Positions 12,698 through 39,598 of a DNA stretch of 41,236 nucleotides are shown here, piece after piece (the first letter of the stretch is position 1; each line of letters begins with the position of its first letter). This stretch comes from Phycisphaerae bacterium (lineage in GTDB: Bacteria > Planctomycetota > Phycisphaerae > JAAYCJ01): assembly GCA_012729815.1 (NCBI GenBank), contig JAAYCJ010000176.1, positions 1 through 41,236 of the forward strand. The letters run 5' to 3'. A model generated the notes under the pieces. That model was not told where the DNA came from. It searched no databases and was given only the letters and a program-made list of their open reading frames with translations. A program made the position numbers and the translations under genes.

Positions 12698-13294
12698 ATG
12701 GCCGCTGAAGACCGTTACGAACGTCGTCGGATCGCTGCGAGTTACGCCTCGGCCCTTTTCGAGCTGGCCCAGGCGGGCGACGCGGTCGATCGCATCGCCG
12801 AGCAGCTTGCCGGTTTGCGCAGCGTGCTCGAGGCGCACCCGGAACTGGTGACGCTCTTTGAGTCCCCGGTGGTCGGTTTCGAGGATCGCCGTCGGCTGGT
12901 CGAGCGGATCGGGTCCGGCTGCGATGAGATGCTGGCCGGCACGTTGGCGGTGATGAACCGTCGGGGCCGGCTGGGCATGCTGCCCGAGATGATCGCGGCG
13001 TTCCGGGACCAGTTGGACCGCCTCCGCGGTCGGGTTCGGACGCGGCTGACCACGGCGACGGACGTCGACGAGACCACGATGGCGGATATCCGCAAAGCCC
13101 TCGGCAAGTACCTGAAGCGCGAGCCGGTGATCACGCACCGGGTCGATCCGGCGATCATGGGCGGTTTCGTGGCCCGGGCGGGCGACACCCTGATCGACGC
13201 GTCGGTGCGGACGCAACTGGCCATGATGAAAGAACGTTTAACCCAACGAGGCGAAGATGAAGTTCAAAGCGGACGAGATCACGTCGGTCATTAA
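12698..13294 (+). CDS. atpH: ATP synthase F1 subunit delta
   Basis: 198 residues, nine bases after atpF. The N-terminal helical domain begins [15 protein letters not shown], typical of delta/OSCP, and the C-terminal domain has the family's [25 protein letters not shown]. Delta caps the F1 head and binds subunit b. The last 12 codons or so ([13 protein letters not shown]) overlap the start of atpA by 38 bases and are not family-like, so the tail seems to be a read-through extension into atpA coding sequence. Confidence 0.94.
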
Positions 13295-14918
13295 GCGGGA
13301 AATCGAGAACTTCCGGACCGAGCTGGATCTGGCCAATGTCGGGCAGGTGCTGGAGGTCAGTGACGGGATCGCCCGGGTCTACGGCCTGACCTCGGCCATG
13401 GCCGGCGAGATGGTCCAGTTCGAAAGCGGCGTCTACGGCCAGGTATTCAACCTCGAGGAAGGCAGCGTGGGCATCGTCGTGCTCGGCGACTACCTGACCA
13501 TCGAGGAGGGCCACAGCGTCCGATGCACCGGGCAGTTGCTTTCGGTGCCGGTCGGACCGGAGCTGATCGGCCGCGTGGTCAACCCGCTCGGCCAGCCGAT
13601 GGACGACGGCGGGCCCATCGTCACCACCCGCCGCCGTCCGGTCGAGACGCCGGCGCCCGGCATTGCCGAACGCCAGCCGGTCACCGAACCGCTCCAGACG
13701 GGCCTCAAGGCCATTGACTCGATGACCCCCATCGGCCGCGGCCAGCGCGAGTTGATCATCGGCGACCGCAAGACCGGCAAGACCGCCATCGCCCTCGACA
13801 CGATTATCAACCAGAAGGGCCAGGGCGTGATCTGCGTCTACGTCGCGGTCGGCCAGAAGGAGTCGACGATCGCGAGCGTGGTCGATACGCTCAAGCGGGC
13901 CGGCGCGATGGACTACACCATCGTCGTGGCCGCTTCGGCCGCCGATCCGGCCCCGCTCCAGTACGTCGCCCCGTACGCCGGCTGCGCCATGGCTGAACAC
14001 TTCATGTACGAGGAAGGCCAGGCCACGCTGTGCATCTACGACGACCTCTCGAAGCAGGCCCAGGCCTACCGCCAGTTGAGCCTCCTGCTTCGCCGGCCTC
14101 CCGGCCGCGAGGCCTATCCGGGCGACATCTTCTATCTGCACAGCCGCCTGCTCGAACGCTCGGCCAAACTCGCCGAACGCCGCGTCATCGTCGAGATGAC
14201 CTCGCCGCCGGACACCCGCGAGGGCGTCAACGGCAAGGTCTACGTCGGCGTGCCCGGCATCCACGAGGCCAAGACCGACCTGGGGCGGATGGACAACCGC
14301 GACCGCCTTGAGGTGCGGGTCGTGCCCGGCAGCGGCGGCTCGCTGACCGCGCTGCCGATCATCGAAACCCTCGAGGGCGAGGTCTCGGCCTACGTGCCCA
14401 CCAATGTCATCAGTATCACCGACGGGCAGATATACCTGGTCTCCGACCTGTTCTTCGCGGGCGTCCGGCCGGCGGTCGAGGTGGGCATCAGCGTCTCCCG
14501 CGTCGGCGGCAAGGCCCAGAACAAGGCCATGAAAAAGGTCGCTGGTTCGCTGCGGCTCGACCTGGCCGCCTATCGCGAGCTCGAGGCGTTCGCCCAGTTG
14601 GGCACCGAACTTGACGCCGCCACCCAGGCCCAGCTCGACCGCGGGGCCCGCATGGTCGAGATCCTCAAGCAGCCGCAGTACGTGCCCATGTCCGTCACCG
14701 ACCAGGTGTTGATCATCTACGCCGGGGTCAAGGGCTTCCTGGACGACGTCCCGATTCCGCGGGTCCACGAGTTCGAAAGCAGGTTCCTCAAGTTCATGCG
14801 GGACCAGACGACCGACATCTATAACGAACTGCAGTCCAGGGGCGAGCTGACCGACGACCTGGAGGAGGGCATCCGCCAGGCGATCAAGACGTTCAAGGAG
14901 ACCTTCAAGCGGTCGTAG
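13257..14918 (+). CDS. atpA: ATP synthase F1 subunit alpha
   Basis: 553 residues. The beta-barrel N-terminal domain is followed by the nucleotide-binding domain with P-loop GDRKTGKT (169-176; the usual motif is GDRQTGKT), the non-catalytic-site segment [29 protein letters not shown] split over bases ~14470-14550, and the helical C-terminal domain. The length is some 40 residues more than E. coli alpha, mostly in the C-terminal part. Alpha and beta alternate in the F1 hexamer. The start overlaps atpH by 38 bases, and GAGGCGAAG precedes the ATG. Confidence 0.97.
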
Positions 14919-15875: not shown

Positions 15876-17327
<1,452 letters not shown>

Positions 17328-33517: not shown

Positions 33518-33556
33518 AGCGGCCAGCCTTGGACCTTCCGATTGGAGGTTGCGGAT

Positions 33557-35743
33557 ATGCATAAGGGCAGGCGTTTGAGGTGGTCTGTCGTTCCGGCCCT
33601 GTTCAGTGCAATCCTGGTTTCCTGCCTGCTCGTCGGCTGTGACGGCGGCCAGACCGATCCCAACCAGATCGCCGACCCCAACGATTCCACGACCGATCCC
33701 AACGACCCCAATGCCCTGCCCGACGCCTCCAGCCCCGAAGCCGGACCCAACCCGTCCAACGACCAGGCTTGGACCAAGGTCTCCGACGCGGTCGATCAGA
33801 TCCTCGACGACGGAGGCGCCGTGGACCTGGCCCGCATCACCTTTCTTTCGCTGATCCTCCAGGAGCCGGCGGTCGCCACCGGCGGGGTCGACCCCGAACA
33901 CAGCGGGATCGCCTGGGCCCGCTTCACCGACGGTGAGGTCCGGTTCCTGATGATCGTCGACGAGGACGCTGACAGCCAGGACTGGGACACCGGTCTGCCC
34001 GAACCGCCGGACACAGCCAAGGCGGCCTCGCCGCTCAACGTCAAAGCGGGCGAGTCCTCGCCGCCGCCCGCCTTCGCTCCCGCCGCCGCTAACGACGTCC
34101 CTCCGCACTACCTGCCCGCCAGCAACAAGGCCCTCCTGGTCAACGGCTGGGCGCCTTTTCACAAGCAATGGTCGATCAACGACTCAACGCCCCACGTCAA
34201 GAAGATGCTCGAATCCCGCGGCTACAAGGCGACCACTGGCCGACTGAGCGTGGGGCATTTCTCCGGCCTGAGCCACTTTGGCCTCGTCCTGATCGAGGGC
34301 CACGGATCGTGGTTCGACGTAGACCCCAACATCGTGGACGACCCCGACATTCCGGACGATCCCCGCCCCAGCGGCTACGGGATATTCACCACCGACGCCT
34401 TCACTCCCGAGAATCGCGAGGCGATCTGGGGCGCCGACGCCAAGGGCCGCGACAATTGGCTCGAAGACGTCCAGCGAGAATACGTCGGCCAGTTCGAGGT
34501 CAAGACCTATCAGGGCAGGAGGGTCGTCGATCGCCGTTACTACTACTGGGTCTCGCCCACCTTCATCACCAAGTATGACAAGGGCACGTTCCCCGACCAC
34601 GCCGTCGTCGTCCTGAGCTGCTGCCGCGGTTTCCAGAACGGCAATCCTTTCGCCGAGACGGTCTTCAGCAAGTCCGACCGGGGGGCGGTGGTTTTCGGCT
34701 GGACCAATCGCATCCATTCCGTCCGAGCCATCCACGCGATCCTCTGGCTCTTCCAACTCGCCACCGCCTCCAACGAGAGGGTTACGGCCGAGGGCGTCTA
34801 CGGCGAAAAAGACGTGCTCGAATCCGCGACTCCGCCCCGCGGCAGTCATCAGGTCCAGCTCTCCGCGGTCCACGAGGCCCTCGTGCAGGCGGGAAAGGAC
34901 GTCGATCCCAACAGCGGGGCCCGCTTGGTCTACGACCTTCAGGATGACGAACCTTACGAAACCCTCCTCATGCCGCATCCGCTGATGCTCGTTCCGGCCT
35001 CGTGGGAGTTGATCCAGGATTGCTGCCTCTGGATGCACGCCCAGGATGCTCCAACCCTCAAGATCGGCGACGCCGGCGTCTCTCTCACCAAGCAGAGCTC
35101 AGCCGAGTGGACCGCCCACCTTCCTGTTGGCGCCTACGGCAGCATCGTGGCCGCCGAAGGTGGCCGCAACAGTATCGCCCGGCCGCTGCACCGCTGGCAA
35201 CCGAAGGTCAAGATGAGCCGCCCGGGCGACCAAGGGCTCTGCTTCGAGATCAACCTGGCCCTTCAGTTCCGCTCGACCGCTTTGGGCTTCCGCAATAACG
35301 TCTGGCAGGACGCCCCGCCGCCCAACTTCGCCGCCGGGGCCGAACTGGCTGGCTCGACCGTGACCTGGCGCATCTGGGGCGAGGAAACCGATGGCGCCAC
35401 CCGGACCAACTACAGCGGCTCGGGGGCCAAGGTTCTGGCGCTCGGCGATGCGGCTGGGATGCTGCGGTCTCTCGACGGTGCCACCGCTGAGATGAGCTTC
35501 GAGATTAACATCCCGCTCACCTTCACCGTGACCGACCTGGAGAACGGGACCAGCCAGTCGTTCAACCTGGATGCCGCCATGTTCAGGTTTGTCCGCAGCG
35601 GCCTGGCCCTCTCCGAATCCTGGGCCGTCCCCGCCGCCTCCTTCGATCAGAGTGCCGCCGCCCCGTGGGGCTATCCCGCCCGCGTCGAGTGGAACGCCTT
35701 CGCCGCCGACCCGCCGTTCGACAACACCACCATTCCCCGCTGA
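33557..35743 (+). CDS. Large lipoprotein with caspase/CHAT-like His and Cys motifs
   Basis: 728 residues. A lipoprotein signal ends in LLVGC (Cys28), followed by an Asp-Pro-Asn-rich linker ([18 protein letters not shown], about 33-55). Residues 190-410 resemble a clan CD cysteine peptidase: a strand then [13 protein letters not shown] (His249), later [13 protein letters not shown] (Cys355/Cys356), then [26 protein letters not shown], which follows the order seen in CHAT and gingipain-type domains (strand-HG, strand-LSxC, helix, strand-W). The C-terminal 300 residues look beta-rich, perhaps adhesin- or propeptide-like. It would be anchored outside the cytoplasm. GGAGG is eight bases before ATG 33557; the frame stays open further upstream inside the radical SAM gene as a shadow. 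Peptidase activity is inference. Confidence 0.72.
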
Positions 35744-38311: not shown

Positions 38312-38488
38312 GGCTCTTCTTCGGCGTTCGGTCCTTTGCCAGATGTGTCCGTGCCTGCGGCTGGAATTTGATGGCATGCGATGGCGATCGAGAGATAATC
38401 TCGGGGCGTGTCAAACTATGGCCGCATGTGGAGACCGACAGTATCTCCGAAGGAAGGAAGCCGCCAAGACCCAAAGGAGCCGCTGACC

Positions 38489-39598
38489 ATGAATACCCCC
38501 AACCCTCCCTTCGCCACCAGCGACTACATCCTCGCCGTATCCGCCGACCCGCCCGCCCACGACGGCACGGGCGACATGTGGCCCGTGACCTGGGCCGCCG
38601 ATGACGCGATCTACGCCGCCGCCGGCGACAACGACCCCGGACAAGGCGAAGGCACCGGCTTTCGAGGCAAGCCGCACTGGTCGCCCATGAACGTCTGGCG
38701 TGTCCGCGACTGCCCGAGCCCGCACGTCACGCCGGAGCTCGTCCACAACCTTCCGGTCGATCCCAAAAAGTACTGCCAGCGTCCGCTGACCGATCTCGAC
38801 AACGGTGTCAAACCCGCGGGATTGCTCAGCATCGCCGGAACCTTGTACCTGGCCGTGGCCAACATCAGCGACGTCAACCGCCCCGGAAATCCCTCCTTCA
38901 ACCGCCAGCGCAACGTCAACGCCTGGATCATCACCTCGCGCGACTACGGCAAGACCTGGGACGTGGACGTCACGCCGCAGGAGTTCTTCACCGGCCGCCT
39001 GTCCTCACCGCACTTCGTTCAGTTCGGCCGCGACTACGCCGGTGCGCCCGATGAATACATCTACGCCCTCTTTCCCGCCGCAAACGACGGCTGCAGCTAT
39101 TGGGACAACGGGGACTATATGCTCCTGGGTCGCGTCCGCATTGCGGACATCCTTCGCCGCGACCGCTGGGAGTTCTGGACCGGAATCGACCAAGCCGGAA
39201 AGCCCAAGTGGAGCAATAACGATTCCTCTGCCGCGCCGGTGTTCAGCTTCCCAGGCTTCACCGCCGAAAACCACGTGGCCTACAACCCCGGACTCGGGCG
39301 CTTCATCATGGGCAACGGCGGCTTCTACGGCAAGGACGGCCAACCGCTTCCCTATCACAACGGACCCCGCGGACAGTACCGCTCTCAGTTGACGGTCTAC
39401 GAGGCAACCAATCTCTGGGGCCCGTGGCGACTCTTCTACCGCGTCGACGACTGGGGCAAGGGCAACTACCAGCCGAGTTTCCCGACCAAGTGGATGAGCA
39501 AGGACGGCCGAGAAATGGTCATGGTCTCCTCCGGCATGGGCGAGAACTACACCTTCACCACCCAAAAGCTCCACCTGACCGTCGCCTCCGACACCTGA
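38489..39598 (+). CDS. DUF4185-like beta-propeller protein, probable glycan-active
   Basis: 369 residues, no signal peptide. Repeated strand motifs typical of five-bladed propellers are seen: MWPVTWAADDAIYAAAGDN, GTLYLAVANIS, AWIITSRDYGKTWD, VAYNPGLGRFIMGNGG and LTVYEATNLWGPWRLF. The Trp-Gly-Pro-Trp and Asp-rich first-blade turns resemble DUF4185 and sialidase/arabinanase-like propellers. Some DUF4185 proteins have been shown to be endo-D-arabinanases (GH183), so a role in glycan breakdown is possible but unproven here. AAGGAG lies about ten bases before ATG 38489; the open frame extends upstream to 38408 without a ribosome site. It is flanked on both sides by the 43-nt repeat. Confidence 0.62.
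   Translation: MNTPNPPFATSDYILAVSADPPAHDGTGDMWPVTWAADDAIYAAAGDNDPGQGEGTGFRGKPHWSPMNVWRVRDCPSPHVTPELVHNLPVDPKKYCQRPLTDLDNGVKPAGLLSIAGTLYLAVANISDVNRPGNPSFNRQRNVNAWIITSRDYGKTWDVDVTPQEFFTGRLSSPHFVQFGRDYAGAPDEYIYALFPAANDGCSYWDNGDYMLLGRVRIADILRRDRWEFWTGIDQAGKPKWSNNDSSAAPVFSFPGFTAENHVAYNPGLGRFIMGNGGFYGKDGQPLPYHNGPRGQYRSQLTVYEATNLWGPWRLFYRVDDWGKGNYQPSFPTKWMSKDGREMVMVSSGMGENYTFTTQKLHLTVASDT

Follow-up and report, generated by a model that had tools for sequence, protein, structure and literature searches.

A planctomycete lipoprotein family with a conserved His-Cys pair, probably a new family of clan CD cysteine peptidases

P0001, a gene in the 41,236-nucleotide stretch of Phycisphaerae bacterium DNA analysed here (the window), encodes a protein of a family that is not described by the Pfam and NCBIfam models tried. 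The family is new and is probably an active, lipid-anchored family of clan CD, a function that we infer from sequence. We consider it likely that P0001 is a lipid-anchored clan CD cysteine endopeptidase of the cell surface or periplasm, with the dyad His249/Cys356, acting on exported proteins. P0001 has relatives in which the dyad is conserved and which are homologous to clan CD, it carries a lipobox, and its own genome encodes a paralogue lacking the His. From sequence features we infer its fold, catalysis, location, substrate and cleavage preference.

Translation of P0001 starts at ATG 33557 and ends at the stop codon 35741-35743. A longer reading frame from GTG 33335 was rejected; it overlapped the upstream gene and lacked the start context of ATG 33557. 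Inspection of the N-terminus revealed a K-G-R-R n-region, a hydrophobic stretch and the sequence LVGC28, the lipobox that the earlier note on this DNA had placed at Cys28. By this type II signal P0001 is classed as a bacterial lipoprotein whose lipidation is predicted. The Asp-Pro-Asn-rich linker pointed out in the same note is real (residues 34-53); as a feature specific to P0001 it was rejected, because such tracts are frequent elsewhere in the genome. DPN..DPN tracts numbered 61 in the own genome vs 0 in a reversed-pattern control (e.g. own-genome contigs C62:21307-21420, C226:23734-23847 and C321:8012-8125). They often directly follow a lipobox Cys, and some precede C-terminal hydrophobic segments; the linker thus represents an organism-wide style. 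The remaining motifs lie where they had been reported: His249 ends the strand LVLIEGHG, Cys355 and Cys356 lie within VVVLSCCRG, and AVVFGW (residues 377-382) follows the Cys pair. Single motifs of this kind could arise by chance; the family-wide conservation of His249 and Cys356 argues otherwise.

Table 1. Positions of P0001 and its features in the window
Feature	Position	Strand	Basis
P0001 gene, 728-aa lipoprotein of a clan CD-like family	33557..35743	+	translation; profile without own subgroup, E = 5.7e-21
Shine-Dalgarno-like GGAGGT, 7 nt 5' of ATG 33557	33544..33549	+	read from sequence
Type II signal peptide, lipobox L25-V-G-C28 (Cys28 = 33638-33640)	33557..33640	+	sequence; most relatives likewise
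Asp-Pro-Asn-rich linker, residues 29-68 (DPN-rich stretch 34-53)	33641..33760	+	sequence; like linkers after other lipoboxes in the genome
Conserved N-terminal domain, ~residues 69-140	33761..33976	+	common to the family; AlphaFold2 block pLDDT 67-79
Predicted caspase-haemoglobinase-like catalytic domain, ~residues 187-482	34115..35002	+	family alignment; profile-profile match to C25/C14/CHAT
His249 (EGHG), candidate catalytic histidine	34301..34303	+	16/17 aligned loci, column rank 2/214
Cys356 (CCRG), candidate nucleophile	34622..34624	+	16/17 aligned loci, column rank 1/214
C-terminal region, residues 485-728	35009..35740	+	alignments; shared only with P0002 and L022

P0001 had zero Pfam matches up to E = 10 and no PDB sequence match, and its one match in NCBIfam was weak, local and confined to the signal/linker region. 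Single-sequence searches of Pfam, PDB, relatives' genomes and contigs gave nothing informative except paralogues in the own genome, which spans 5.47 Mb in 367 contigs. One of these paralogues, P0002, is full-length (681 aa) and 28% identical to P0001 in a MAFFT alignment. A profile of P0001 and P0002 detected one locus, L010, among 392 genomes of the phylum (E 9.7e-6 for its genome). A search with the L010 core added five loci, and a joint profile added more in the same class. Among the latter is L022, the closest relative outside the own genome (31-33% identical, with an alignment that stays colinear up to the final residues). A profile lacking P0001, P0002 and L022 recovered P0001 at the E value in Table 1 (Z = 100,000), and membership of P0001 in the family is therefore secure.

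The family was present in at least 9 of 248 genomes of the class and at least 6 of 334 genomes of the phylum, the own genome included in both counts. Named records exist for three of these loci, and their phylum was taken from the record titles: Candidatus Brocadia sp. WS118, a MAG of unclassified Planctomycetota, and a MAG submitted under the label Proteobacteria. The last record (L019, JAFMMO010000248.1) is titled Proteobacteria bacterium; the genome set holds the same locus (L012, G227) within the phylum of P0001, and the label is thus probably wrong. These findings indicate that the family is sparse and rare, and mainly found in Planctomycetota. No match to the L010 core was found in the plasmid and viral collections searched, and a profile search of PDB with the family core gave no significant match. 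A pattern search based on six distant members failed because the alignment was too variable; one based on three members returned known loci only. A literature search of open-licence papers revealed no description of such a family.

The family alignment comprised 17 loci, with 214 columns scored. The column of Cys356 was the most conserved and that of His249 the second, each with its residue in 16 loci, and the Gly250 column was within the top five. The earlier note had proposed a survey of homologues for His249 and either Cys; His249 and Cys356 withstood it, and Cys355, whose column was not conserved, was rejected as nucleophile, since only Cys356 sits in a conserved column. Clan CD peptidases have a dyad in which a His precedes a Cys and both residues are strongly conserved (PMC4357240), and the family has this order at column ranks 2 and 1.

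The 17 loci have one order in common: a signal peptide, in most cases containing a lipobox, comes first, then the N-terminal domain, made up of two helices and three strands, and then a catalytic-type core; predicted lipid anchoring recurs in most members. The core starts with an S-N/K-K-A strand, a helix and a strand, followed by 'tv..f..L..yGvv.i.sHG'. The His and Cys motifs are 67-113 residues apart, separated by a variable stretch with 'TP.F...Y...fP.s'; the Cys motif, '.V...sC.s', is followed by 'af...GA.a..Gwt..v'. The spacing in P0001, 107 residues from His249 to Cys356, is long, and we count it against the peptidase reading. C-terminal regions differ among members; L033 carries Big_1 parts, and P0001, P0002 and L022 have one region in common, for which a PDB profile search with the P0001 region gave no significant match among solved structures. 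The protease-like core is combined with different putative surface modules across relatives. A choice-of-anchor-L-like domain (NF038133) forms the end of L010, L012, L013 and L014, with L012 alone above the curated cut-off, and the C-terminus of L028 is leucine-rich-repeat-like by eye.

The paralogues in the own genome differ at the candidate site. In P0002 (L002, L078; contig C14:41579-43618), TTPNG replaces EGHG, and the Cys and the C-terminal region are kept. The divergent paralogue L033 (contig C101) keeps both His and Cys and has an insertion after the His. In the fourth paralogue (L003/L034, L080; contig C267:2100-3700), the Cys column holds Ala, and the N-terminal part is set apart from the rest by a frame change and an in-frame TAA, which suggests a pseudogene or an error of assembly. 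P0001, P0002 and L022 grouped together in the tree with support of 92/89, below the strict threshold. Because L022 keeps both His and Cys, the loss of the His in P0002 looks derived.

To compare the family with clan CD, planctomycete C25, CHAT and C14 domains were gathered from related genomes with the Pfam models and made into profiles. In hhalign, the family matched C14 at P 5.6e-6, C25 at P 4.7e-5 and CHAT at P 1e-3; the reversed family gave P 0.44, 0.36 and 0.75, respectively. With 43 unrelated ORFs as a control, the lowest P was 0.1; these were single-sequence targets, whereas the tests used profiles, and single clan CD sequences gave P 0.00027-0.69, so that this control is informative and imperfectly matched. 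In the same test, known clan CD families gave P 6.9e-5 (C25-CHAT), 1.9e-4 (C14-CHAT) and 0.22 (C14-C25); they match one another no better than the family of P0001 matches them. The family profile was also split into a His half and a Cys half, each aligned separately; in 6 of 6 comparisons (P 1.3e-5 to 0.049) the family residue, His or Cys, coincided with its catalytic counterpart. The full-length C14 alignment matched the His only; the C14 Cys was reached only when the Cys half was aligned separately. By itself, the P0001 subgroup lacked a clan CD signal (hhalign probability no higher than 1.5%), and the clan CD assignment of P0001 therefore runs through the wider family. These comparisons, which place the conserved His and Cys356 on the catalytic residues of C25, C14 and CHAT, show homology with clan CD and support the clan CD reading of the earlier note.

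AlphaFold2 was run on P0001 residues 63-490 with three homologues (four-row alignment) and on the catalytic domain of L018 with two homologues (three-row alignment). Confidence was low (mean pLDDT 46.9 and 38.4, respectively; pTM 0.38). The best part of the P0001 model was the N-terminal domain, predicted as helix-helix-strand-strand-strand. At very low confidence, the model has strands 191-196 and 224-228 with a helix between them, strand 243-247 before His249, strand 351-355 before Cys356, and then a helix, strand 375-380 and a helix. At this confidence (pLDDT 46.9), the order of elements equals that of clan CD and that given in the earlier note. A Foldseek search with the P0001 model (pLDDT 46.9) gave no match at E <= 0.001. 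The caspase-like fold of P0001 is thus predicted from homology.

P0001 lies downstream of a gene for a B12-binding radical SAM protein and upstream of genes for a serine-acetyltransferase-like hexapeptide protein and a methylthiotransferase with UPF0004, radical SAM and TRAM domains, which we take to be of the MiaB type. ORF inspection revealed no recurring partner gene beside P0001, P0002, L033, L003 or L022, whose neighbours look different; the earlier remark that no dedicated substrate gene lies beside P0001 is in line with this. A DUF4185 protein is encoded nearby (window 38408-39598), with no evidence seen of a relation to P0001. Two ATP synthase alpha/beta-family subunits are encoded at window 13257-14918 and 15891-17327, the latter with a V/A-type C-terminal domain. 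LptF and LptG are also encoded in the window, which suggests that an outer membrane is present; P0001 could therefore sit in either membrane. Under E. coli rules, Asp at +2 favours the inner membrane; these rules may not apply in the host of P0001.

In the proposed mechanism, P0001 would be exported, acylated on Cys28 and held at the membrane surface by its flexible linker. The N-terminal alpha/beta domain, the clan CD-type catalytic domain and the lineage-specific C-terminal region would then all lie outside the cytoplasm, with a probable role of the last in binding substrate or surface material. As is usual in clan CD, Cys356 would attack the peptide bond with the assistance of His249. Such a protein would most likely carry out limited proteolysis, with exported proteins of the cell surface or periplasm as its substrates.

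The main rival reading keeps the clan CD fold but takes P0001 to be no protease; it would act as a scaffold or binding protein at the surface, with His and Cys in a structural or non-hydrolytic role. The own genome keeps the full-length P0002 without EGHG, dyad-less pseudo-variants have been described among orthocaspases and caspase homologues (PMC6426788), and ORF inspection found no substrate or partner gene linked to P0001. The paralogues without the site show that the scaffold is at times retained without catalysis, and this is counted against the peptidase reading. However, His and Cys are the top two columns across very divergent members, beyond glycines and core hydrophobic residues, as expected for catalysis, and retention of both residues in L022 makes the loss in P0002 look derived. 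A non-catalytic scaffold fits P0002 better than P0001, for which we regard it as unlikely. Both kinds of protein might act in one envelope, with lipid-anchored active proteases accompanied by site-less paralogues that serve as substrate receptors or regulators, the whole forming a separate, unnamed clan CD family; this extension is speculative and, in our estimate, doubtful.

Some clan CD relatives catalyse reactions other than hydrolysis, as in legumain-type ligation, GPI transamidase and PorU-type surface attachment. The P0001 domain might likewise be a transpeptidase, ligase or protein-attachment enzyme, a role that a location at the membrane surface would suit and for which other exported proteins with Asp-Pro-Asn tracts are encoded in the genome. 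We think this very improbable: no conserved sorting signal is tied to P0001, no neighbour is conserved, and the rarity of the family in the phylum argues against a general attachment system. It is just as improbable that the likeness to clan CD is due to chance and that P0001 is a Rossmann-like or other alpha/beta lipoprotein. The P0001 model had weak Rossmann/flavodoxin-like matches in Foldseek, and Pfam gave no clan CD match; the Foldseek matches were disregarded because the model is too poor for them to carry meaning. The profile controls at P 0.1 or worse and the placement of both half-profiles on catalytic residues in every comparison also speak against chance.

Clan CD contains caspases, separases, legumains, gingipains and CHAT proteases, and the P0001 family, lipid-anchored and too far diverged for the Pfam and NCBIfam models, would be a new branch of it. 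A genome that carries intact copies beside site-less ones would offer a case for studying the origin of extracytoplasmic pseudo-proteases, and otherwise unannotated Planctomycetota proteins would gain a testable function.

Among known systems, gingipain-type C25 peptidases (PF01364) resemble the family in having a strand-His-Gly, a strand-Cys-x-G/S and then a GA-rich strand in the same order, and the Cys half of the family matches them at P 1.3e-5, Cys on Cys. In contrast to C25, the family is predicted to be lipid-anchored, has its own N-terminal domain and a His-Cys spacing of 67-113 residues, and gave no Pfam C25 match for P0001 (E <= 10) or the 13 other members scanned (E <= 1). The own genome carries a separate true C25 gene (L049). 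In metacaspases and orthocaspases (C14; PF00656), it is the GHG strand that the His half matches (P 4.2e-5, His on His), and pseudo-variants occur in both families; the Cys half, however, aligns weakly (P 0.026), and Pfam gave no C14 match in P0001 or the 13 other members scanned. No C14 domain match was found in the own genome. The Cys half also matches CHAT (PF12770; P 4.2e-4), aligning SC with AC and covering the GA-strand that follows. CHAT differs in that P0001 is an exported lipoprotein with no recurring partner genes, and no Pfam CHAT match was found in P0001 or the 13 other members scanned; the CHAT gene of the own genome (L038) is a different one. Clostripain and fragipain (C11) have no Pfam sequence match in P0001, but they belong to clan CD, and fragipain acts in the maturation of other proteins that its own cell exports (PMC8406203), the role that we propose for P0001.
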